Assembly (NCBI RefSeq): GCF_029278565.1
Contig: NZ_CP119561.1
Location: 62,001 to 126,000 of the forward strand
Direction of reading: 5' to 3'
DNA from: Haloarcula halophila
Lineage (GTDB): Archaea; Halobacteriota; Halobacteria; Halobacteriales; Haloarculaceae
DNA length: 64,000 bases
Numbering within the stretch: the stretch's first letter is position 1; each line of letters starts with the position of its first letter. The notes under the pieces are model-generated. The model saw only the letters and a program-made list of their open reading frames with translations. It made no database searches and had not been told where the DNA came from. Position numbers and translations under genes: made by a program. Shown piece by piece: positions 35,848-63,721 of this stretch.

Positions 35848-36669
35848 CTACTCGACGAGTTGGCCACGGTACTGCTCGGCCAGTTCGCCGTCGAAAGCGG
35901 TCAGTTCGACGATGTCGTCCTCGGTAAGGTAGTCGACCTCGTCGACGTAGCTGACGGCGTCCTCGCGGGCGGCAAAGGGAGCGGGATTGACCTGCATCGG
36001 GTCGTCGAGACGGTCTCCATCGGTCTCGAGGGCGTAGTACGCGGCTGTTCCATCGATGAGTTCCCGCGAGTTCAGGTCCCTGATCCACAGCCCCGTGATG
36101 TCGGCGTCGGTCGCCGCGAACTGGTCCGGGACGGCGTAGTACGTCGTCGCACAGCCGGACGTGCAGAAGAACGCCCGGGTGTTGTCGTCGTGGACGGCCT
36201 GTGCGTTCCAGTCCGGGAAGTTTGTGGCCATCATGTCACAGACGGCACACCGTGCATCCTCGGGGACGTCGACCGACGCCTGGGACTCGGTCGCGGTTTC
36301 GCTCCCCTCGTGAGCGACGTAACTCGTGCAGTACCCGCTGGGGTCTATCGTCCCCTCGACGATACCGCAGGCACCGACGCCGTCGCCGTTCTTGTCGAGG
36401 ATGTAGTAGGTACAGCCGGAACACTGCTGGCCGTCCTGTGGCTCGGACTGGTAGTTCACGGTACTCTGCGTCGAGAGGGTCGAGGGGTCGCGTTGTTGGC
36501 CGTTCAGACTCGTCGCCGTCCGGTACTGCTCGGGCACCCCGCCACTCGACGTCGCGGTCGAGGTCCGGTCACCGCCGCCCGAACAGCCCGCCAGAGCGGC
36601 GGCGGACCCGCTTCCCATCAGTGCGAGCATCGTCCGTCTGTCCAGTGTCGGGATAGTCCCTCGTGCCAT
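35848..36669 (-). CDS. HiPIP-NosL fusion, Tat lipoprotein
   Basis: 273 residues from ATG at 36669 (MARGTIPTLDRRTML). LDRRTMLALMG plus LAGCSGG gives a Tat lipoprotein signal (Cys29). Residues about 72-122 look like a high-potential iron-sulfur protein: QQCSGCTYYI, then GACGIVEGTIDPSGYCTSY, four Cys spaced as in HiPIP. From about 135 a NosL-like domain has ARCAVCDMMATNFPDW and a following FFCTSGC. NosL binds Cu(I) for oxidase or N2O reductase maturation. A fusion of an electron carrier with a copper chaperone is unusual. Divergent from a Sco gene. Confidence 0.82.
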   Translation of the reverse strand: MARGTIPTLDRRTMLALMGSGSAAALAGCSGGGDRTSTATSSGGVPEQYRTATSLNGQQRDPSTLSTQSTVNYQSEPQDGQQCSGCTYYILDKNGDGVGACGIVEGTIDPSGYCTSYVAHEGSETATESQASVDVPEDARCAVCDMMATNFPDWNAQAVHDDNTRAFFCTSGCATTYYAVPDQFAATDADITGLWIRDLNSRELIDGTAAYYALETDGDRLDDPMQVNPAPFAAREDAVSYVDEVDYLTEDDIVELTAFDGELAEQYRGQLVE

Positions 36670-36775
36670 ATCTCGATGTCCGGACGCGCTAATCAAATGC
36701 GGTCTGGTACGACCGTCGTACCGTTTCGAAAACCCCACCATACCGCTTACCTCCGGCAGTTAGAAAGAATGACCC

Positions 36776-37465
36776 ATGCAGCGACGGGCCTTCCTCACAG
36801 GCAGTCTTGGCGTCGCCGCTGCGAGTGCCGGTTGTCTCACGGCTGCACTCAGAGGCGACGACGGCGGCGAAACAGTGCTCGCCCCACAGGCCGACCAGCA
36901 ACACGACGGTGGGAGCCTCCCGTATCCGACGTACGGAGAGCCGTTGCCGTCGTTCACCGTCCCCGACCCGTTGGCCGACGAACTGGTCGCGAGCGACGAC
37001 GTCGACGGCACGCTGGTAGTAACCGCCTTCTTTACCACCTGTCCCGCCGAGTGCGTCCAGCTCATCGGCCAGCTGGCTGGCGTCCAACACGGCACCATCG
37101 AGCGGGGCATCGATGGGGAGGTGACTTTCCTCGCGGTCACGTTCGACCCCAGCCGTGACGACGCACAGGCCCTCCGGGAGTACGGACAGCAGATGAACGT
37201 CGACCTGTCGGCGGGGAACTGGCGGTTCCTCCGGCCGGACTCCCCGGAGCGCGCCGAAACCGTCGTTGAGGGGAAGCTCGGCGTGACCTTCGACCGTATC
37301 GACGCCAAGACGTCCGAACGGTTGGAGGGATACGACTTCCGGCACCTCTCGCTTACATTCCTTCGGAACCCGGGCGGCACCGTCGAGCGGGCCTACCGGA
37401 CCGAGCGGCCCGACCACCAGCGCGTGCTCTCGGACATCAAGACGGTCGTTGAGGCGACCAGCTGA
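36776..37465 (+). CDS. Sco1/SenC-family copper chaperone, copy 1
   Basis: 229 residues with RRAFLTGSLG and the lipobox ASAGC near residue 20. The copper site is FFTTCPAECVQLIG near residue 83 (Cys-x3-Cys) and the histidine in YDFRHLSLTFL near 188. Sco delivers copper to CuA of cytochrome oxidase. The paralog at 50737 shares most of the sequence. The gene is followed by the UreH/SafE-like membrane protein after 2 bp. Confidence 0.88.
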   Translation: MQRRAFLTGSLGVAAASAGCLTAALRGDDGGETVLAPQADQQHDGGSLPYPTYGEPLPSFTVPDPLADELVASDDVDGTLVVTAFFTTCPAECVQLIGQLAGVQHGTIERGIDGEVTFLAVTFDPSRDDAQALREYGQQMNVDLSAGNWRFLRPDSPERAETVVEGKLGVTFDRIDAKTSERLEGYDFRHLSLTFLRNPGGTVERAYRTERPDHQRVLSDIKTVVEATS

Positions 37466-37467
37466 CG

Positions 37468-38256
37468 ATGCAGTCCTGTACACCTGCCAATCCGCTGCTT
37501 GGCACGGAGACGCTCGGATTGCCGGTACTGGTACTCGTCGGCCTGCTCGGCGGGGCCCACTGTATCGGAATGTGCGGGCCGCTGGTCGCGATGTACGCCG
37601 ACCGGATGGACGAGGGCCGGCGCGATGACGTCCTGTCGTTCCGGGAGATTCGCCAGCATGCGATGTTCAACCTCGGACGGACGGCCACCTACACGCTTCT
37701 GGGTGGGCTGTTCGGGCTTGCGGGCCAGCTCACCTTCGTCAGCGTCCGGGAGGTAACTCTCGTCGCGACGGAAGTCAGGGCGGTGACGGGTATCGTCGTG
37801 GGTCTCGTCGTCGCCGTCGTTGGTGTCGGCTACGTTACCGGCAACGGTGTGCGAACCGTACCGATTTCAGGCCTCGACCGAGTAACGAGCCGGCTACGGA
37901 ATGCCATGCTCCAGCGAGTCGACGAGTGGGTCGGCGACTACCGCATCGCCGGCCTCGGTGCCGTTCACGGATTCCTGCCGTGTCCGCTGCTGTACCCGGC
38001 GTACCTGTACGCCTTCGTGCAAGGCTCTGCACTTGGTGGGGCGGCAGCACTTGGCGCTCTCGGGCTTGGGACCGTTCCGGCCGTCTTCGTAACCGGGACA
38101 GTGTTCGACGGACTGGATATCGGCAGTCGTCAGCGCCTCCACCGTGGCCTCGGTGTCGCCTTCGTCGTGCTCGGCTACATCCCGCTGCAACACGGTCTCG
38201 CCGCGCTCGGCATCGCGCTTCCGGCCGTCCCGCTTCCGCACTTCCAGCCCTGGTGA
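37468..38256 (+). CDS. UreH/SafE-like membrane protein (oxidase assembly)
   Basis: 262 residues, about six spans. LLGGAHCIGMCGPLVAMYA near residue 28 carries two cysteines on one helix and GAVHGFLPCPLLYPAYLYAF near 165 carries one more; this pattern belongs to the UreH_2 family found near CcoI/Sco genes, probably passing copper across the membrane. It is coupled to the Sco gene. Confidence 0.78.
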   Translation: MQSCTPANPLLGTETLGLPVLVLVGLLGGAHCIGMCGPLVAMYADRMDEGRRDDVLSFREIRQHAMFNLGRTATYTLLGGLFGLAGQLTFVSVREVTLVATEVRAVTGIVVGLVVAVVGVGYVTGNGVRTVPISGLDRVTSRLRNAMLQRVDEWVGDYRIAGLGAVHGFLPCPLLYPAYLYAFVQGSALGGAAALGALGLGTVPAVFVTGTVFDGLDIGSRQRLHRGLGVAFVVLGYIPLQHGLAALGIALPAVPLPHFQPW

Positions 38257-44400: not shown

Positions 44401-44457
44401 CTGGTTTTCGACGACCCCACCAAGAGCCATTTGTCCGTCCTTGCGGTAGGTTCGCGT

Positions 44458-45018
44458 ATGTCAGAACGTACACCTGGCCCAACACGGCGACAGGTGCTTG
44501 CCGGCACGGCGACGCTACTGGCGCTTGCAGGGTGTCAGAGCGGCGGTAATACGGCTGAGCCGGTCACCATCGCAGCGGACGACAACTGCGACCAGTGCGG
44601 GATGGTCATATCGGAGCATCCCGGGCCGGTCGGCCAGACCTACTACCGGGACAACACACCGACCGCTCAGGACGCACCGGCCCGCTTCTGTAGCACGACC
44701 TGTACCTACCGTCACCGGTTCGCCAAAGAACAGCAGGGATGGACACCGACGACAACTTATCTCACCGACTACAGTGCCGTCGACTACGACCTCCGGACCG
44801 AGGGCATGGCCACCGTGCTTTCACATCACCTCGGCGCGTCTGCGTTCGCCCCGTTGTCGGCCCTGACCGTCGTCGCCAACTCGGACGTGGAGGGCGCGAT
44901 GGGCACCGCTATCGTCCCCTTCGGCGATAGCGGCGACGCCGAGTCGTTCGTCAAGGAGTACGGCGGCCAGACGCTCCCCGCCGAGGACATCCAGCGCGAA
45001 CTGGTCAGCAGCGGTTGA
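44458..45018 (+). CDS. NosL-family copper-binding lipoprotein
   Basis: 186 residues from ATG at 44458. TRRQVLAGTATLLALAGC is a Tat lipoprotein signal. DDNCDQCGMVISEHPGPVGQ is the NosL metal motif (Cys-x2-Cys-Gly-Met), with FCSTTCTYRH next. NosL takes Cu(I) to oxidase or N2O reductase. It is a simple NosL, compared with the fused form at 35848. Confidence 0.85.
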   Translation: MSERTPGPTRRQVLAGTATLLALAGCQSGGNTAEPVTIAADDNCDQCGMVISEHPGPVGQTYYRDNTPTAQDAPARFCSTTCTYRHRFAKEQQGWTPTTTYLTDYSAVDYDLRTEGMATVLSHHLGASAFAPLSALTVVANSDVEGAMGTAIVPFGDSGDAESFVKEYGGQTLPAEDIQRELVSSG

Positions 45019-45369: not shown

Positions 45370-46599
45370 ATGAACTACAACTACAGGTATCGGCTTCGTC
45401 CGTCCGACGCTCTCGAAGACCAGTTAGCGTGGACTGTCGATACCTGTAGACAGGTCTACAACCACTTCCTCTACCGACTCAATCGACACGACGATACCTT
45501 GGCATACTCCGAGCAAAAACGGCTTCCCGACCTCAAGAAGTGGTGGACCGACCTGAAGGACGTTCACTCGAAGGTTCTCCAGAAAGTCGTTCAACGGCTG
45601 TACGACAACCTCACCACGCTCCGTGGCCGCAAGGAGAACGGCCACCACGTCGGGACGCTCAACTGGAAGGTACCCGGCGAGTACCGCAGTTTCACCTACA
45701 GTCAATCCGGCTTCAAGCTCAAAAACACGAGCGGTCGAACGCGACTGTGGCTCTCGAAACTCGGTGAAATCCCGCTCACCTTCCACCGTGACCTGCCCGA
45801 CAACGTTGATATTAAGACCGTCACAATCAAGCAGGAACCGACCGGGAAGTGGTACGCCGTCCTCGGCATCGAAACGCCTGACTCTCCACCGGCGAAGCCC
45901 GAGAATCCCGAGAAGTGCGTCGGCATCGACGTGGGAATTCTCAAGTACGCTCACGACACCGACGGAACTGCCGTCGAATCGCCAGACATCGCAACCGAAC
46001 GCGAGCGGCTGGAACACGCACAGGGGGAACTATCGCGGAAGGAACACGGGTCAGAAAATTGGGAGAAACAGCGGAAGATTGTAGCCGAACGCCACGCCGA
46101 CCTCAAGCGAAAGCGTCGTGATTTCCTCCACAAACTGTCGAACTACTACGCCACCGAGTACGACTTGGTGGCCGTAGAGGACTTGGACGCGAAAGGCTTG
46201 GTCGAACTGCCGGGCAACTCGCGCAACCGGGCAGGCGCGGCGTGGGGAACGTTCCTGCGGATGCTCAAATACAAGTGCGAACGCGAAGGCACGCATTTCG
46301 TCGCCGTGAACCCGAGCGGGACGACCAAGGAGTGCGCGTCGTGCGGCGTTTCGACGGACAAGCCGTTGTGGGTCCGTGAACACTCCTGTCCAGCCTGCGG
46401 ATTCGAGGCAGACAGGGACGCGAACGCGGCATGGAACATCCTTTCTCGCGGCCTCGAAGATGTAGGAGTGGGATACTCCGAATCAACGCCTGTGGAGACT
46501 GCGCTCCCTGTGGATACCAATTCGGTGTCTGCAAAGCGCGTCGTTGAAGCAGGAAGCCCTACCCTCAAGGAACGAGCCGCGTCAGCGGCGAGTGAGTAG
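45370..46599 (+). CDS. tnpB: TnpB-type RNA-guided nuclease (IS200/IS605 OrfB, IS1341 group)
   Basis: 409 residues. RuvC-type acids: GIDVGILKYAHD near residue 193, AVEDLDAKG near 266 and ADRDANAAWN near 351. A zinc ribbon CASCGVSTDK...HSCPACGF lies between the last two. The N-terminus MNYNYRYRLRPSDALEDQLAW is the usual OrfB start. No TnpA is adjacent, so it depends on a TnpA in trans. No internal stop; probably functional. Its 3' end overlaps the structured right end that usually gives the guide RNA. Confidence 0.9.
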   Translation: MNYNYRYRLRPSDALEDQLAWTVDTCRQVYNHFLYRLNRHDDTLAYSEQKRLPDLKKWWTDLKDVHSKVLQKVVQRLYDNLTTLRGRKENGHHVGTLNWKVPGEYRSFTYSQSGFKLKNTSGRTRLWLSKLGEIPLTFHRDLPDNVDIKTVTIKQEPTGKWYAVLGIETPDSPPAKPENPEKCVGIDVGILKYAHDTDGTAVESPDIATERERLEHAQGELSRKEHGSENWEKQRKIVAERHADLKRKRRDFLHKLSNYYATEYDLVAVEDLDAKGLVELPGNSRNRAGAAWGTFLRMLKYKCEREGTHFVAVNPSGTTKECASCGVSTDKPLWVREHSCPACGFEADRDANAAWNILSRGLEDVGVGYSESTPVETALPVDTNSVSAKRVVEAGSPTLKERAASAASE

Positions 46600-47147: not shown

Positions 47148-47963
47148 TCATCGCAGTTGCGCGACGGCCGCCGCGCCCACCAGTGTCGATACCCACCAGC
47201 CACCCAGTGCGACGGTGGCGAGCCACCCTGGGACGAACGACGACCGGATCGGGACGGCCACGTACAGCACCTGGTCGAACACGAGCCCGCGGTACGCCCC
47301 GGCCGGTGTCACCGAGAGTGCGCCGCCGAGTGACTCGCTGGTCAGGATACCACCGTCCAGCGCCGCGAAGACGGCCACGTCCCCGCCGACGGTGAGCACC
47401 AGCAGGCCGGCCAGCGAGAGCACGAGCGCGCGGCTCCGCGAACCGGCAAGCACCGACAGGAGGACCGCCAGCGACAGCGAGACGAGACCGTAGACCAGCG
47501 TGATTGCGAGAAACCGGAGGTACAACAGGGGCGAGTCGACCCCTCGGTGGCTCGCGAACACCGTCGTCTCGGGACCGGCCGTCGTGGCCACGTGGACGCC
47601 AAGTGCCGCCAGCGGGACGCCGACGACGGCCACGAGTATCACCGCCCGTCCCGCGTACGTGCCGCCGACGTACCCCCATATCGGGAGCGGGTACGTCTCC
47701 AGTACATCGAGTTCGCCCCGCGAGATCGGGTCCGAGAGCGCCCGGTAGCCAATGGCGAAGGCGACGGCGGGCACGAGCAGCTCCACGACGACGAGCACGT
47801 CGACCACCGTCGGCACGTATCCGCCCGTGGGTCCGCCGCCGGCGATAGCGACGCCGAAGACGGCGACGACCGTCACGAGCCCCAGCGCCAAGTAGCTCCG
47901 CGAGCGGGCCGCCGCCCTGACCTCACGAGCGAACACATGCCAGACGCGGTCGGCCGTCGTCAT
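47148..47963 (-). CDS. nosY: NosY-type ABC permease
   Basis: 271 residues, about six spans: SYLALGLVTVVAVFGVAIAGG, VVVELLVPAVAFAIGYRAL and others. ISRGELDVLETYPLPIWGYVGG is the NosY core loop. With NosF and NosD it moves sulfur or copper species for maturation of the CuZ site of N2O reductase; no nosZ is in this window. Confidence 0.82.
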   Translation of the reverse strand: MTTADRVWHVFAREVRAAARSRSYLALGLVTVVAVFGVAIAGGGPTGGYVPTVVDVLVVVELLVPAVAFAIGYRALSDPISRGELDVLETYPLPIWGYVGGTYAGRAVILVAVVGVPLAALGVHVATTAGPETTVFASHRGVDSPLLYLRFLAITLVYGLVSLSLAVLLSVLAGSRSRALVLSLAGLLVLTVGGDVAVFAALDGGILTSESLGGALSVTPAGAYRGLVFDQVLYVAVPIRSSFVPGWLATVALGGWWVSTLVGAAAVAQLR

Positions 47964-48679
47964 CGGTCGCCCCCCGCGGTGACGACGCCCGTCTCGCCGG
48001 CGAGCAGCGACGTGAACGTCTCGTGTAACGGGCCGCCGGTCCGCTCCCGCAGTTCGGCCGGGCTGCCGGTGGTGTGGAGCCGCCCGGCTTCGAGGACGGC
48101 CAGTCGGTCGGCAGTCCGCTCGACCAACGGGAGTTCGTGTGAGCTCAACACCACGGCCCGGCCCTCCGCGGCAATGGACTCGACGACCTCGAATATCCGA
48201 TCGCTCATCGCCGGGTCGAGCCCGCTGGCCGGTTCGTCGAGCACCATCACGGGCGGGTCGCCGGCCAGCGCCTGCGCGATACCCAGCAGCCGCGTCATCC
48301 CGCCCGAGAGCCCGGTGACCGGGCGGTCGGCCACGGCTCCCAGCCCGACCGACTCCAGCAGCCGGTCCGGGTCGTCGTCGACGAGCCCGGCGTAGAAGTC
48401 AGCCGTCTCGGCGACCGTAAAGCCCGGGCGAAACGTCGGCCGCTGTGGCAGGTAACCAAATCGTCTGACGGCTTCGGGGCCGTGGTAAGAGACAGAGCCC
48501 AGCGTGGGCCGTTCGACACCTAACAGGAGTTCAAGCAGGGTCGTCTTCCCCGAGCCGTTCGGGCCGATGAGCCCCGTCACGGCGTTGCCAGGAATGTCGA
48601 GGGTGACCTCGTCCACGGCCGTCACGTCACCGTAGGACTTGGTCAGGTCGTCGGTCGACAGATACGGCTCGGTCGTCAC
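47960..48679 (-). CDS. nosF: NosF-type ABC ATP-binding protein
   Basis: 239 residues. Walker A GPNGSGKTTLLELLLG, signature LSGGMTRLLGIAQAL, Walker B VMVLDEPASGLDPAM. Gene overlaps nosY and nosD by 4 bp each. NosF drives NosY. Confidence 0.85.
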   Translation of the reverse strand: MTTEPYLSTDDLTKSYGDVTAVDEVTLDIPGNAVTGLIGPNGSGKTTLLELLLGVERPTLGSVSYHGPEAVRRFGYLPQRPTFRPGFTVAETADFYAGLVDDDPDRLLESVGLGAVADRPVTGLSGGMTRLLGIAQALAGDPPVMVLDEPASGLDPAMSDRIFEVVESIAAEGRAVVLSSHELPLVERTADRLAVLEAGRLHTTGSPAELRERTGGPLHETFTSLLAGETGVVTAGGDR

Positions 48680-50589
48680 GGCGGTACCTCCGTCGTGGTT
48701 CCGTTTCGTACCATGGTGAGTGTGTCGGGGTTGGCAGGTTCGGCCAGCGGTGCGGTGTCGACGATGCTCCCGCGGCGGAACCCAGGCGTCGTCCCGCGCA
48801 GCGCCCGCAACGCGCGGACACTCGGGGCCGAGCGAAGCACCACCGCGGCGTTGGTGTGGTGGAGCTGCCCGTCGACGGTGTCGGTCGGTGAGTACGGCTG
48901 GGTCAGTGTCGACCCATCGTCCGCCGAGAGGTCGTAAGCACCGCTCCAGTAGTTCCCCCGGCCGTCGTCAGTGTACCGCCGCAACGGCCCGGGGCCGGAG
49001 ACGGCGTGCTGGTCGTTCGCCACGAAGTCGTTCTCGGTGACGGTGTTCGACGGTAGGACCGTGGCGGCGGTGATACCGATGTCGTTCCCGTAGACGACGT
49101 TGTGTTCGTACAGCGACCGCCCGGCGTTGGCCGACAGCGCCCGCGTGGTGTTGGCCATGACGTTGTGGCCGATGTAGCTCCGACTGCCGGCCATCATGAT
49201 ACCGCTCCCGGCGTTCCGTACGTCGTTGCCGACGACGGCGTTGCTCTCGGGGTTCGTCATGACGACGACGCCGGCGTACTCCGGTCCCCGGGCGACGTTG
49301 TCGGCGACCAGCGTTGAGGAAGTGTACATCAGGTGGACCCCGAAGCGGTCGTTGAGGAAGGTGTTCTCGCGGACGACGGTCCCGTCGGCCCGGTGGAGAT
49401 AGATGCCGTCGCGTCCGCCGCGGAACGTACTGTGCTGGACGACGACGTCGGCGTGCATCCCGACGACGCCCATGAAGCCATCCTGCCAGTCTGCAGTTCC
49501 GTTGACGGTAACGTTCTCGACGACGGCGTCCGATGTCCGTCTGAGTACGAACCCGCTCGATCGTGTCTCGACAGTGACGTTCGCCACGTACAACTGAGAG
49601 GCGTTGTGAGCGGTGACAGCCGCGTCGCTGTTGCCGTAGGCCGCTGTCACGGTCGCGTCCCACGCCGAGCCGTTCATAGCCGAGCGGTTGCCGGTGGTCT
49701 GGTTCCCGACACCAGTGATGGCCATGTCGGTGATGGCCACGCGGTCGGCCATCACCGCAACGACGGTACCGTTGCCGCCGCCGTCGAGCGTGGCGTTCCG
49801 CCCGCGGAGCGTCAGTGGCTCGTCGATGCTCACCTGCTCGCGGTAGGTGCCGTTGGGAACGACGACGGTGGTGTTGGGTGGGGCCTCGTCGACGGCTGCC
49901 TGCACCGTCGGGGCGTCTTCACCGACCACGACCGAGACCGGCCGAGCGTCAAGTGCTCGTGCGGCCCGGACAGTCGCGTTGGCCGTCACCTGCCGATCGT
50001 CGACCTGCTGTCGGATGGTGGCGGCCCCGTCTTCCTCGAACGAGTGGGACCGGACCGTCGCCCAGTCGACGACCCCGCCGCCACAGCTGTCGGCGAACAC
50101 GTCGGCGGCGTCGCGGTTTCCGAACGGCACCACAGCGAGACCCGAGGGAGTCCGTGCGCTCCCGTTGACGACGTAGTGGGCCTCGCTCGCGCCCACCCAC
50201 CTCGGCGACGAGTCAGTCCGAAGCGTCCCGTTCTCGCCACAGCGAGCCCCCGTGTCGCTGTAGTCGGTGACGTACACCGTGAGCGGGTAGCCGAACTGCT
50301 GTTCGTGGCCCGGCTCTGTCAGCGCCGCCACCGTCCGGTCGAGGCCGACGTAGCCGACGACGTAGCGGTACTGCGAGTAGAACACCTGCGCTCGGGGAAT
50401 AGTGATATCACGGTTGAGCGCGCGCTGCTCGTCGGCCATTGTGATACCGCGCTGGACGGTCCGGTCGAACGGGACGGGGCCGGGACGCTCGCTGCTGAGG
50501 TCGACCACGAACGCAGCTCCGAACACGACGACGGCGAGGAGGACGGTGAGTGCGGTCACCGTCTGCCAGAGCGACAGTCTCGAGCCCAT
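48676..50589 (-). CDS. nosD: NosD-type secreted beta-helix copper protein
   Basis: 637 residues. N-terminal signal anchor LWQTVTALTVLLAVVVFGAAFVV, then a region about 40-215, and from about 225 parallel beta-helix repeats (TVQAAVDEAPPNTTVVVPNGTY, GIMMAGSRSYIGHNVMANTTR, FGVHLMYTSSTLVADNVARG, DIGITAATVLPSNTVTENDF). It works outside the cell in CuZ assembly with NosFY. The N-terminal 200 residues carry a NosL-like cysteine and may be another domain. First gene of nosDFY. Confidence 0.85.
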   Translation of the reverse strand: MGSRLSLWQTVTALTVLLAVVVFGAAFVVDLSSERPGPVPFDRTVQRGITMADEQRALNRDITIPRAQVFYSQYRYVVGYVGLDRTVAALTEPGHEQQFGYPLTVYVTDYSDTGARCGENGTLRTDSSPRWVGASEAHYVVNGSARTPSGLAVVPFGNRDAADVFADSCGGGVVDWATVRSHSFEEDGAATIRQQVDDRQVTANATVRAARALDARPVSVVVGEDAPTVQAAVDEAPPNTTVVVPNGTYREQVSIDEPLTLRGRNATLDGGGNGTVVAVMADRVAITDMAITGVGNQTTGNRSAMNGSAWDATVTAAYGNSDAAVTAHNASQLYVANVTVETRSSGFVLRRTSDAVVENVTVNGTADWQDGFMGVVGMHADVVVQHSTFRGGRDGIYLHRADGTVVRENTFLNDRFGVHLMYTSSTLVADNVARGPEYAGVVVMTNPESNAVVGNDVRNAGSGIMMAGSRSYIGHNVMANTTRALSANAGRSLYEHNVVYGNDIGITAATVLPSNTVTENDFVANDQHAVSGPGPLRRYTDDGRGNYWSGAYDLSADDGSTLTQPYSPTDTVDGQLHHTNAAVVLRSAPSVRALRALRGTTPGFRRGSIVDTAPLAEPANPDTLTMVRNGTTTEVPP

Positions 50590-50736: not shown

Positions 50737-51402
50737 ATGCGACGCCGACAGCTACTCAAGGGGGTTACAGCGGTCGGGACAGCGTCGGTCGCCGGCTGTC
50801 TCTCGGAGTCGAACGTCGTCCTGAACGCGCCGGCCGACCGCCAGTTCGACAGCGAGGATCTCCCGTACCCCGCCCACGGGCAGGCGTTTCCGCATTTCTC
50901 GCTCCCGAACCCGCTCTCGGACGAGACGATCGGGACCGAACAGCTGGACGAGACGCTGCTGGTCACCGGCTTCTTTGCGACCTGTCCGGCCGAATGTGTC
51001 CAGCTCATCGGCCAGCTGGTCGGTGTCCAGCACGGGGTCGTCGAGGAGGGGCTGGCCGATTCGGTCCGATTTCTGGCCATCACCTTCGACCCGGAACGGG
51101 ACGACACCGAGGCGCTCCGGGAGTACGCCGACCGGATGGGTGTCGACCGCGACGCCGGCAACTGGGAGTTCCTCCGTCCTCCCGACCCGGCGGCGGCAGA
51201 GCGCGTCGTCGACGAGCAACTCGGCATCACGTACGAGCGCGTCAGCGAGAGCAGCAGGGTCGATGGGTACGACTTCAATCACCTCTCGCTGACCTTCCTC
51301 ATCAACCCCGAGGGGTACGTCGAGCGCGCCTACCGTACCTCCCAGCCGGACGCCGAGCAGGTGCTCGCGGACACCCGAACGGTCGTCCAGCGCTCGGGGT
51401 GA
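50737..51402 (+). CDS. Sco1/SenC-family copper chaperone, copy 2
   Basis: 221 residues with a Tat/lipobox signal RRRQLLKGVTAVGTASVAGC. Copper site FFATCPAECVQLIGQL near residue 85 and the histidine in YDFNHLSLTFL near 182, as in the paralog at 36776. Its promoter also begins with a CCACCAGACCGCTT-like block, similar to CCACCATACCGCTT before copy 1. Divergent from nosD. Confidence 0.88.
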   Translation: MRRRQLLKGVTAVGTASVAGCLSESNVVLNAPADRQFDSEDLPYPAHGQAFPHFSLPNPLSDETIGTEQLDETLLVTGFFATCPAECVQLIGQLVGVQHGVVEEGLADSVRFLAITFDPERDDTEALREYADRMGVDRDAGNWEFLRPPDPAAAERVVDEQLGITYERVSESSRVDGYDFNHLSLTFLINPEGYVERAYRTSQPDAEQVLADTRTVVQRSG

Positions 51403-51407
51403 CCGGT

Positions 51408-51926
51408 ATGCGTCGTCGCCACCTCCTCGCCGCCATCGGCGGGACCGCCGCCGTGGGCACGGGAACTCTCTACGTCCGACCGTGGCGGTCAGGGAACGAG
51501 AGCGCTGCGCCGGTCACCGTCGAGACGCTCGACGCACCCGGTAGCGACGCGGGGACGGTCACCGTGCCGCCGGCCGACGGCCCGCTGGTGCTAGAGTTCT
51601 TCGCCACGACCTGTTCGACGTGTGCCGACCAGATGGCGGTGCTCGCGGACGCGTATCGCCGCGCGGACGACTCGGTCCCGTTCCTGTCGGTGACGAGCGA
51701 ACCGGTCGGCCTCTCGGTCAGCCGGGCTGACGTGCGCGAGTGGTGGCGGACCCACGACGGGGGTTGGCCCGTCGGCCTCGACGACGGGACGGCGCTCGCC
51801 CAGCGGTACGACGCGACGCGGGTGCCGACGACGCTCGTGCTCGACGAGGGGATCGCGTGGCGACACACCGGCCCCTTCGACGTCGACGCTCTCCTTGCGG
51901 CTATCCGGGCGGTGACCGACGGATGA
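51408..51926 (+). CDS. TlpA-type thiol-disulfide protein
   Basis: 172 residues from ATG at 51408. Tat-like signal MRRRHLLAAIGGTAAVG, then a thioredoxin fold with LEFFATTCSTCADQM near residue 68, and ATRVPTTLVLDEG as the cis-proline. It reduces disulfides outside the cell, probably Sco or CuA cysteines. Overlaps ccdA by 4 bp. Confidence 0.82.
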   Translation: MRRRHLLAAIGGTAAVGTGTLYVRPWRSGNESAAPVTVETLDAPGSDAGTVTVPPADGPLVLEFFATTCSTCADQMAVLADAYRRADDSVPFLSVTSEPVGLSVSRADVREWWRTHDGGWPVGLDDGTALAQRYDATRVPTTLVLDEGIAWRHTGPFDVDALLAAIRAVTDG

Positions 51927-52579
51927 GCCCGGGCGTGACGCTCGCGTTCGCGTTCGGCGCTGGGTTGACGACGTTCGCTGCCCCCTGTGTGTTTCCGTTG
52001 CTCCCGGGCTACGTCGGCTACTACGCCGACCAGCATGGCGGCCGGGGAACGACGCGACCACTACAACAGGGACTGGCGGCGGCCGCGGGCGTGCTCGTCG
52101 TCTTCGCGGCGCTGACGGCCGCCGTCTACATCCTCGACAGCCGCGTAGTGTCGTCGCTCGACGGACTGGAACCCGTGGCAGGCGGCCTTCTGATAGTGCT
52201 CGGTGCCGTCACGCTTACCGGCTACGCGCCATCGATACACGTCGCGCTCCCGGAGCACCGAGACACGTCGCTGGGTCTGTTCCTCTTCGGTGGCGTCTAC
52301 GCCGTCGCCGCCGCGGGGTGTACCGTGCCGATACTGCTGGCGGTGGTCGCACAGGCGTTCGCGGTGGCACCGCTCCCGGGTGCCGTGGTTCTCTCGATGT
52401 ACGCGGTGGGCGTGGCGCTCCCGATGGTCGTGGCCACCGTCGCCGTGGGGTACGGGTCCGACATGCTAACCGGCGGCGCGGGCGTCTCCGGCTCCACGCT
52501 CACGCGTGTCGCGGGGGGTATCATGCTGGTCGCGGGTGCGGTACAGGTGCTGGCTGGGCTACCGCTCGAACTGTTGTAA
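51923..52579 (+). CDS. ccdA: CcdA/DsbD-type membrane electron carrier
   Basis: 218 residues, about six spans. Redox cysteines: TTFAAPCVFPLLPGYVGYY near residue 21 and AVAAAGCTVPILLAVVA near residue 133, both followed by prolines. CcdA moves electrons from cytoplasmic thioredoxin to extracellular TlpA-type proteins. Start overlaps the TlpA gene stop. Confidence 0.88.
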   Translation: MSPGVTLAFAFGAGLTTFAAPCVFPLLPGYVGYYADQHGGRGTTRPLQQGLAAAAGVLVVFAALTAAVYILDSRVVSSLDGLEPVAGGLLIVLGAVTLTGYAPSIHVALPEHRDTSLGLFLFGGVYAVAAAGCTVPILLAVVAQAFAVAPLPGAVVLSMYAVGVALPMVVATVAVGYGSDMLTGGAGVSGSTLTRVAGGIMLVAGAVQVLAGLPLELL

Positions 52580-61455: not shown

Positions 61456-63204
61456 TCACACCGGGAACGGCGGCGCGGCGGGGCTGAATACACCATCGGC
61501 CACCATCGAGTAGATGGGGAACCCATAGGCGATGGCGACGAGCACGACGGCGATGAGGAACCAGAGTTTGACGTTGTCCAGCACCCGTGGGCTGTCCGAA
61601 GCTCCGGAGATGGGTTCGGGAAGGTGGCTGTCGACGCGCAACCGACCCCGCCCACGCTCGGCTAGCCACGTTCCGACCATCACGAACACGAACATGAGCG
61701 CACCCAACGTCAGCAGCGACCCACCGATCGCGATCTGGAGACGCATCTCCGACATCGACCCCAGCAGCGGCGCGAAGTCGAACTGCTGGTATTGCGGTTC
61801 CGCAGTCCGTCTGGGGACACCGGCCAGCCCCGCTCGGTGCATCGCGTTGGACATCAGCCCCATGCCGATGAACCAGATGTACGGCTGTATCTGGGCGACG
61901 CCGTAGAACTGCAGGCGTTTGCCGGTAATCTGCGGGTAGAGCCAGTAACTGATGGCCATCATCGTCAAGGCGCTTGCCGTCCCGACGGTGAGATGGAAGT
62001 GGCCCGGGACCCACAGCGTGTTGTGGACCAGTGAGTTGATGTTCATCCCGGCGTTGACGATGCCCGAGAAGCCCCCGGCGGCGAACATCAGGCCCGCGAG
62101 CGCACAGCCGGCAAACGCCGGGTTCCCCCACGGGAGCGACTTCAGCCAGCCCAGATACCCCGTGCCGCCCCGCTGGCGGGCCCCGTACTCCATGCTCGCG
62201 ACGACGGTGAAGGCGGTGAGGAAACTCGGGAGCAACAGGAACATCGTGTTGGTCATCGCGATGAACTTGAACCCTTCCGGCACGCCGGGGTCGGCGTACT
62301 GGTGGTGAAAGCCCACAGGCGTCGACAGCAGGAGAAAGAGGATGAAGACCACACGAGCCAGCGGGTCGCTGAACAGCCGACCGCCCGAAAGTTTCGGCAG
62401 GACGGTATACCACGTGAAGTAGGCCGGCATCAGCCAGAAGTACACCACTGGGTGGCCGAAATACCAGAACAGCGTCCTGGTCAGCAGGGGATCGACGCTC
62501 TCGATGAGCCCCAGCGACATCGGCAGGAGAAAGACCAGCACCTCGACGGCGACGCCGAGCGTGGCGATGTACCACATCAGCATCGTCGTCATGATCATGA
62601 ACATCTGCAGCGGGATGCGCTCGCCCGGGTTGTCCTGTCGCCACTGGTAGTACGTCCGGAACCAGTCGACGCCGGCGAGCCACGTCCCCGCGAGCCAGGT
62701 CGCCAGTCCCGCGTAGAACAGCGGGTGGGCCTGCAGCGGCGCGTAGAACGTATATAGGACGTCGGCCGAGAAGGGTATCTGGCCGACGAGACCGCCAAAA
62801 ATGGCCGTCGACGTCATCACCGCGCCCGAGAGCATCAGGAGGAACCAGGCGAGCGAGAACCGCGGCGAGGAGAGTTTCCGGCCGAGGCTGTTGCTGGTCC
62901 CCCAGGTGAAGATGCCCGTCAGAAAGAAGATGGTGAAAAACAGCGCGAGCAGGACGCCGTGTCCGGTCAGCACGGAGTAGTAGTCAGCTGAGCTGATGAG
63001 TCCGCGGAAGACGTTCGTCCGATGCAGCGCCTGGATGATACCCAGGATAGCACCAATAGCGAGGGCGGTAAACGAGACGCTGAGTGAGAGCCGAGTAATT
63101 CGTGCGGCATTCGGGTACCGGTCGATGAAGGCGAGGCGGTCTTTCAGCTGAGTCTCGTCTGCCTCGTACGTCTGTGGTCGCTCTGACTTGTGCGGATGTG
63201 CCAT
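61456..63204 (-). CDS. cbaA: Haem-copper oxidase subunit I (ba3 type)
   Basis: 582 residues, about thirteen spans. GHGVLLALFFTIFFLTGIFTW has the first haem His; WYFGHPVVYFWLMPAYFTWYT is the CuB/Tyr-type site near residue 245; HHQYADPGVP near 315 gives two CuB histidines, and HFHLTVGTASALTM near 412 the last haem ligands. The shape, without the A-type K-channel Tyr loop, fits B-type (ba3) enzymes. Terminal oxidase in the membrane; end of its operon. Confidence 0.92.
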   Translation of the reverse strand: MAHPHKSERPQTYEADETQLKDRLAFIDRYPNAARITRLSLSVSFTALAIGAILGIIQALHRTNVFRGLISSADYYSVLTGHGVLLALFFTIFFLTGIFTWGTSNSLGRKLSSPRFSLAWFLLMLSGAVMTSTAIFGGLVGQIPFSADVLYTFYAPLQAHPLFYAGLATWLAGTWLAGVDWFRTYYQWRQDNPGERIPLQMFMIMTTMLMWYIATLGVAVEVLVFLLPMSLGLIESVDPLLTRTLFWYFGHPVVYFWLMPAYFTWYTVLPKLSGGRLFSDPLARVVFILFLLLSTPVGFHHQYADPGVPEGFKFIAMTNTMFLLLPSFLTAFTVVASMEYGARQRGGTGYLGWLKSLPWGNPAFAGCALAGLMFAAGGFSGIVNAGMNINSLVHNTLWVPGHFHLTVGTASALTMMAISYWLYPQITGKRLQFYGVAQIQPYIWFIGMGLMSNAMHRAGLAGVPRRTAEPQYQQFDFAPLLGSMSEMRLQIAIGGSLLTLGALMFVFVMVGTWLAERGRGRLRVDSHLPEPISGASDSPRVLDNVKLWFLIAVVLVAIAYGFPIYSMVADGVFSPAAPPFPV

Positions 63205-63205
63205 C

Positions 63206-63721
63206 TCAGTTCACCTCACTCTCGTTGAACTCCGCGGGCGGGACGACATCCAGCGACCCTTCCATCGTGTGATGCCCGCTCCCGCAGTACTCGTTACAGA
63301 CGAGACCGTACTCGCCGGGTTCATCGAACTCGACAGTGACCGTTGCGACCTGTCCAGGGACGGCCATCGTGTTGATGTTCGTCCCAACGACCTCGAAACC
63401 GTGAACCACGTCGCCGCTGGTCACGTGGAAGGTGACGGTGCTGTTGGCTGGAAGACGGATAGGCTCGCTCGTCCCCGGGACGAACGCGAACTGGACGGCC
63501 TCAATATACACGTCGTAGTGGTTCGGTTCACTACCGTTGTAGACGCCCGGTTCTCGGAAGTTGTCCGAGGCCGTCGGGTTCGTCTGGTCGACTTCCCCGC
63601 CGGTCGCGTCAACCATCCCGTAGCCGGCGCCGACCGCGCCGTAGGTCACCGTTCCAATAAAGAGGACGATGAGGGTGAGCGCACCGACCAGCCACAGCCG
63701 TTCGAATCGGTGGACGTGCAC
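63206..63721 (-). CDS. cbaB: Haem-copper oxidase subunit II with CuA site
   Basis: 171 residues from a GTG at 63721 (VHVHRFERLWLVGAL). One N-terminal span GALTLIVLFIGTVTYGA, then a cupredoxin domain with VCNEYCGSGHHTM near residue 150, the CuA Cys-x3-Cys, His, Met set, with VVHGFEVVG giving the other His. The two Sco proteins and NosL-types in the window are plausible copper sources. One base separates it from subunit I. Confidence 0.88.
   Translation of the reverse strand: MHVHRFERLWLVGALTLIVLFIGTVTYGAVGAGYGMVDATGGEVDQTNPTASDNFREPGVYNGSEPNHYDVYIEAVQFAFVPGTSEPIRLPANSTVTFHVTSGDVVHGFEVVGTNINTMAVPGQVATVTVEFDEPGEYGLVCNEYCGSGHHTMEGSLDVVPPAEFNESEVN

Follow-up and report, generated by a model that had tools for sequence, protein, structure and literature searches.

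The window (the whole 64,000-nucleotide stretch of Haloarcula halophila DNA analysed here) carries a gene in which a HiPIP domain and a NosL domain are joined on one chain, close to genes of copper delivery and a heme-copper oxidase (Table 1). The reverse complement of positions 35848–36669 forms a single open frame of 273 residues, placing the gene on the minus strand, a detail absent from the preliminary description of this locus. The same frame extends upstream to an ATG at 36741; because homologues align from 36669, this position is the better predicted start. From its N-terminus, the encoded protein comprises a twin-arginine signal with a lipobox (DRRTMLALMGSGSAAALAGC), a threonine/serine-rich spacer, the HiPIP domain (about residues 45–120), a short variable linker and the NosL domain (about residues 135–273). 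Residues G28 and C29 of the lipobox are invariant in an alignment of nine fusions, made up of eight intact genome copies and the plasmid copy of Haloarcula sp. GH36.

Table 1 The HiPIP-NosL fusion gene, its parts and neighbouring genes, in positions of the window
Feature	Position	Strand	Basis
HiPIP-NosL fusion gene (273-residue Tat lipoprotein)	35848..36669	-	Open frame; both Pfam domains above cut-off; kept elsewhere, in genomes and on plasmids
Twin-arginine signal (RR at 11-12) with lipobox LAGC; Cys29 presumed lipidated	36583..36669	-	Sequence
HiPIP domain, residues 45-120	36310..36537	-	PF01355; PDB HiPIPs; dN/dS 0.18-0.29
Four presumed [4Fe-4S] ligands C83, C86, C101, C114	36328..36423	-	Invariant in nine aligned fusions; align with solved HiPIPs
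Variable linker, residues 121-134	36268..36309	-	Length varies in alignment; dN/dS 0.63-2.9
NosL domain, residues 135-273	35851..36267	-	PF05573; AlphaFold pLDDT about 95; Foldseek to NosL 7osf/7og7
Predicted Cu(I) motif C141-x-x-C144-x-M146 (clade II NosL type)	36232..36249	-	Invariant in fusions; motif class per PMC6530538
SCO1/SenC family lipoprotein, divergent from fusion	36776..37465	+	PF02630; near fusion in 7/9 other fusion loci
SafE/DsbD_2-type membrane protein	37468..38256	+	PF13386; 7/9 other fusion loci
Second, stand-alone NosL lipoprotein	44431..45018	+	PF05573, 139 bits
NosY-like ABC permease	47148..47963	-	PF12679
NosF-like ABC ATPase	47960..48679	-	PF00005
NosD with N-terminal NosL domain	48676..50589	-	PF05048 and PF05573
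Second SCO1/SenC protein	50737..51402	+	PF02630
TlpA-like thioredoxin-fold protein	51411..51926	+	PF08534/PF00578
CcdA-like membrane protein	51920..52579	+	PF02683, 25.0 bits, just under cut-off 27.1; GH36 homologue (66% identical) annotated CcdA
Heme-copper oxidase subunit I (b(o/a)3 type)	61456..63204	-	PF00115; GH36 homologue, 91% identical, annotated b(o/a)3-type
Oxidase subunit II, CuA motif CNEYCGSGHHTM	63206..63721	-	PF00116 over cut-off and sequence

The preliminary description had proposed the joining of HiPIP and NosL on a lipoprotein, and domain searches of both halves bear this out. Pfam HIPIP (PF01355) matches residues 73–118 at 25.1 bits (cut-off 22) and Pfam NosL (PF05573) matches residues 134–244 at 47.1 bits (cut-off 24), downstream of an RR...LAGC lipoprotein signal; each half independently matches solved relatives, and every one of the nine aligned fusions matches both families. 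The four cysteines in HiPIP spacing that had been placed at about residues 78–117 are present, with their positions now refined to C83, C86, C101 and C114 (CxxC-14-C-12-C), and the NosL Cu(I) motif follows them, as had been stated, at 141–146. Eleven positions (C29, C83, C86, C101, C114, C141, C144, M146, H160, C173 and M225) are invariant in all nine aligned fusions. At the level of sequence, these comparisons establish a HiPIP domain, a flexible linker and a NosL domain on one predicted lipoprotein, with the presumed metal ligands all conserved.

Several further comparisons support the assignment of the N-terminal half, including the conservation and HiPIP character of its cysteines, on which the preliminary proposal depended. 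In the PDB, its sequence matches 3h31, the HiPIP of Rhodothermus marinus and its closest solved relative (E=1.1e-6), and a profile built from 43 haloarchaeal HiPIP domains matches solved HiPIPs exclusively (3h31 best, at 5.8e-13, and 1isu at 1.2e-8). The four ligands and their Gly-Ala-Cys context are invariant in all 43 of these domains, and NCBIfam adds a weak, sub-cut-off match of the fusion to Iro iron oxidase, itself a HiPIP. Structure prediction, proposed earlier as a check, was clear for the NosL half (pLDDT about 95) and of low confidence for the HiPIP half, alone or within the fusion (two AlphaFold runs; pLDDT 63); the models are silent on contact between the two domains. A Foldseek search with the low-confidence model returned HiPIPs as its top matches, weak (E = 0.083) and the only sensible fold matches. 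Small domains built around a cofactor often model poorly, and for this reason the HiPIP identity of this half is taken from sequence and not from the structure model. The low confidence of the model could also be read as the mark of a degenerate, cluster-free spacer, or of a disulfide or zinc site; we consider this extremely improbable, given the invariance of ligands and context across the 43 haloarchaeal domains, the profile match to solved HiPIPs and the poor modelling expected of a small, cofactor-dominated domain.

Two features of haloarchaeal HiPIPs in general were also seen. A DKNGDG stretch before the third cysteine (residues 92–97 of the window protein) is common to these domains; this EF-hand-like DxNxDG loop is missing in 3h31 and 1isu and is a possible cation site. 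Furthermore, lipoproteins with two tandem HiPIP domains occur at seven loci in several haloarchaeal genera. In the phylum sample, HiPIPs were found almost exclusively in the window's own order, and the HiPIP of the fusion is the only one found in the window's own genome, which has four NosL domains besides that of the fusion (two of them in long NosD-type frames).

The C-terminal half remains a member of the NosL family by both sequence and predicted fold, even where a NosZ role fails (see below). Its sequence matches 7osf in the PDB (E=3.5e-4), and Foldseek with the confident model returns 7osf (E=7.3e-6) and 7og7 (E=4.5e-5), which represent NosL of the NosDFYL complex and Shewanella denitrificans NosL. 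The Cu(I) site of NosL consists of a CXM motif, in clade II of the form CXXCXM, plus a second conserved Met (PMC6530538); both are present, as C141/C144/M146 and as M225. A further NosL fusion, with a preceding domain that looks CHRD-like, was seen at another locus (L019 of genome G291, 760–1947), and no lipobox was seen in the related NosL copies of two other genomes (G387 and G096).

The search of other halophiles suggested in the preliminary description recovered the fusion in nine of 391 sampled genomes of the class, eight intact and one frameshifted, from five genera and two families, and in two more carriers among plasmid records (Haloarcula sp. GH36 and Haloarcula rara). A chance or sequencing join is ruled out by this retention in nine sampled genomes and two plasmids. 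The frameshifted copy (genome G333, loci L016 and L056) is broken at the first CxxC of its HiPIP, and nosD is interrupted there too, through either assembly error or decay. When the window gene was compared with six relatives, dN/dS was 0.18–0.29 for the HiPIP part, 0.14–0.29 for the NosL part and 0.63–2.9 for the 14-residue linker. Both domains are under purifying selection and the linker is relaxed, a pattern that two functional domains joined by a flexible tether would be expected to show. Fusions fall in three places of the HiPIP tree, with seven of the nine within one clade, and in one well-supported group of the NosL tree, which includes two lone NosL. The best trees split the fusions, and constraining them to one clade was not rejected (p-AU 0.097 for HiPIP and 0.137 for NosL); the trees would allow one origin of the fusion or more than one.

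The fusion gene lies embedded in a predicted copper-insertion gene set of SCO, TlpA/CcdA, NosDFY and NosL genes. The NosL domain of the NosD protein (PF05573) spans its residues 65–181, and a second NosD frame with a NosL domain occurs elsewhere in the window's genome (C2:412007-412345); a NosD with NosL family membership is likewise listed for Haloferax mediterranei (PMC9240420). An IS200/IS605-family TnpB-like open frame (45370–46599, plus strand) sits between the second NosL gene and nosY. In Haloarcula sp. GH36, whose fusion copy is annotated by NCBI as NosL only, the genes for oxidase subunits, CcdA, TlpA, SCO, NosDFY, NosL, SafE, SCO and the fusion form a contiguous block. Across nine fusion loci besides the window, we found SCO, SafE and NosD at seven each and TlpA and CcdA at six each, against NosD at five, and SCO and SafE at none, of 28 lone-HiPIP loci, and SCO at four and NosD at six of 19 lone-NosL loci. 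Fisher tests on these neighbour genes favour the fusion loci, with p-values that overstate the difference because the loci are related and not independent.

Lone HiPIP genes also adjoin this system in genomes free of the fusion. Within one genus (g51), five genomes have a lone HiPIP gene that ends about 50–65 bp upstream of nosD on the same strand and is followed by nosD, nosF, nosY and then a NosL gene; at one fusion locus (L054), the fusion occupies the slot held by the lone HiPIP before nosD in that genus. Another genome (G326) has a lone HiPIP gene convergent with a NosL gene, beside nosDFY-like genes. Because lone HiPIP genes directly precede nosDFY in five genomes, HiPIP belongs with NosDFYL even without the fusion, and in our view no other evidence argues as strongly for a functional join. 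The contrary reading is a passive gene join, in which two lipoproteins of one neighbourhood came to share a single lipid anchor and the HiPIP has a function unrelated to copper. The lone HiPIP genes of most haloarchaea do lie away from copper genes, and trees that permit more than one origin are what repeated joining of neighbouring genes would give; we nevertheless find a passive join very unlikely in view of the HiPIP-nosD linkage outside the fusion, the retention of the fusion in five genera and purifying selection on both domains. As a separate observation, a lone HiPIP gene on Haloferax lucentense plasmid pSVX82-2 (L095) directly follows a heavy-metal P-type ATPase gene, another link to metal.

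NosZ was not found in seven of the nine fusion genomes, the window's genome among them, by a search that was positive in 113 of the 391 genomes. A full-length NosZ query against these seven genomes yielded only short partial matches, nearly all to the CuA-like tail. The remaining two carriers (G295 and G333) have NosZ on the same contig as the fusion, about 250–280 kb away, and NosZ is also missing from four of the five g51 genomes that carry HiPIP-nosDFY. The two NosZ searches rule out NosZ maturation as the role of the fusion in the window's genome. Since most carriers, the window's genome included, are without NosZ, the NosL of the fusion probably serves another copper enzyme, and NosDFYL in these organisms must have another client. 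To our knowledge, NosZ is the only known client of NosDFY. The absence of NosZ from most carriers also weighs against the idea that the HiPIP serves the NosDFY(L) assembly machine as its redox partner, acting on the cluster or cofactor under construction and not on chaperone-bound copper. Such a partner would replace NosR and NosX, which supply electrons in bacterial nos systems and provide the precedent, and it would fit the HiPIP genes immediately before nosD in the five fusion-free genomes; overall we judge it quite unlikely.

From the gene sets of the window and GH36, a CuA heme-copper oxidase is the best candidate client, a likely one for which the evidence is thin. Only at these two Haloarcula loci does the gene set of the fusion include a CuA oxidase; at the other fusion loci, no oxidase lay within the stretch read. 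Co-occurrence of the oxidase and the fusion was rejected as proof of a client, since it does not discriminate: a similar subunit I occurs in each of the 30 genomes tested. Two sister genomes keep a 91%-identical oxidase together with SafE; in the roughly 40 kb examined there, neither the fusion nor SCO or NosDFY was found, and that oxidase can therefore do without the fusion.

The main rival to copper reduction, treated below, is that the HiPIP serves the oxidase as electron donor. Donation of electrons to terminal oxidases is a known function of HiPIPs, as in R. marinus, the source of the closest solved relative 3h31, and aerobic electron transport is the annotation of haloarchaeal HiPIPs. 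The HiPIP domain could then be an ordinary respiratory donor to CuA, with the NosL domain only supplying the same oxidase with copper; the fusion would hold donor and chaperone together at subunit II, and the copper on the chaperone would receive no electrons. The presence of the CuA oxidase in the gene sets of the window and GH36 agrees with such a role. Set against it are the other fusion loci (NosD at seven of nine, an oxidase nearby at one of nine), the clustering of lone HiPIPs with nosDFY and not with oxidases, and the sister genomes, which have the oxidase and no match to the fusion. Taken together, we think this donor role unlikely.

We favour, tentatively and at somewhat less than an even chance, a copper chaperone that is exported by Tat, anchored to the membrane and equipped with an electron carrier of its own; it would reduce copper for the SCO/NosDFY pathway with a CuA oxidase as client. 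Briefly, the HiPIP [4Fe-4S](3+/2+) centre would draw an electron from the respiratory chain (from the quinol side or a copper protein, for instance) and pass it to copper, converting Cu(II) at the oxidising cell surface to Cu(I). The CxxCxM site of NosL would trap the Cu(I), which would then pass to the SCO/NosDFY pathway, while the lipid anchor would keep the HiPIP-NosL pair at the membrane surface. With less assurance, the client may be the CuA-containing heme-copper oxidase, here of b(o/a)3 type at 61456–63721, and not nitrous oxide reductase. A more narrowly drawn version, a dedicated extracytoplasmic cupric reductase-chaperone in which the HiPIP reduces Cu(II) and the NosL on the same chain takes Cu(I) and feeds a NosDFY/SCO machine for a non-NosZ enzyme, strikes us as possible but somewhat unlikely.

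The preliminary description had offered reduction of either copper or disulfides during oxidase assembly. Thiol/disulfide couples have negative potentials. HiPIP potentials are strongly positive (330–633 mV; PMC10879576), and we therefore judge disulfide reduction by the HiPIP unlikely; a TlpA/CcdA-like pair for that job is present in the same gene set. Since these potentials suit Cu(II) reduction coupled to NosL capture and not protein disulfides, the former is favoured, and copper reduction by the HiPIP for oxidase assembly remains a plausible reading of the predicted domains. The affinity with which NosL captures Cu(I) is attomolar (PMC6530538). A rough estimate (E0(Cu2+/Cu+) about 0.15 V, Kd about 1e-18 M, micromolar apo-protein) puts the effective potential of Cu(I)-NosL formation above 0.8 V; a HiPIP of 0.3–0.6 V could therefore drive this step. 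A HiPIP can thus reduce Cu(II) when the product is captured at very high affinity; against the copper-reduction model, so tight a Cu(I) site may do without an enzymatic reductant.

How cells maintain copper as Cu(I) on their oxidising outer side, and from where the electrons come, is poorly known. The presence of the fusion among copper-delivery genes, kept in related genera, suggests that extracytoplasmic copper delivery can bring its own electron supply, and since nature has here joined an electron carrier to a Cu(I) chaperone, this question can be tested directly with one protein. A cupric reductase-chaperone, if true, would give HiPIPs a role new to them and NosDFYL one that does not depend on NosZ. 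The NosZ-free NosDFYL clusters imply that this machine, until now linked with nitrous oxide reductase, has a further client. The preliminary description knew of no fusion of this type, and we likewise found no description of a HiPIP-NosL fusion in the open-access papers searched.

Compared with known systems, the fusion shares the four-cysteine spacing and context of HiPIPs (PF01355), both the stand-alone haloarchaeal lipo-HiPIPs and R. marinus 3h31. Its HiPIP domain is 53–68% identical to most lone haloarchaeal lipo-HiPIPs, which stop about 10 residues past the fourth cysteine, whereas in the fusion NosL follows on the same chain. With NosL (PF05573; the NosZ copper chaperone, 7osf and 7og7) it has in common its lipoprotein nature, a fold predicted with high confidence, the CxxCxM motif, the second conserved Met and the company of nosDFY; it differs in its N-terminal HiPIP domain, a Tat signal in place of Sec, a genome without nosZ, and SCO/TlpA/CcdA and an oxidase as neighbours. 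The SCO/PCuAC-TlpA module for CuA assembly of heme-copper oxidases, in which we know of no member with an Fe-S electron carrier, resembles the gene set of the fusion in its SCO, TlpA-like and CcdA-like genes and CuA oxidase. No PCuAC was recognised among the genes examined around the fusion, and in its stead the gene set contains NosL, NosDFY and HiPIP. Both domains and the gene set are of known kinds; what is new is their combination and its NosZ-free context.
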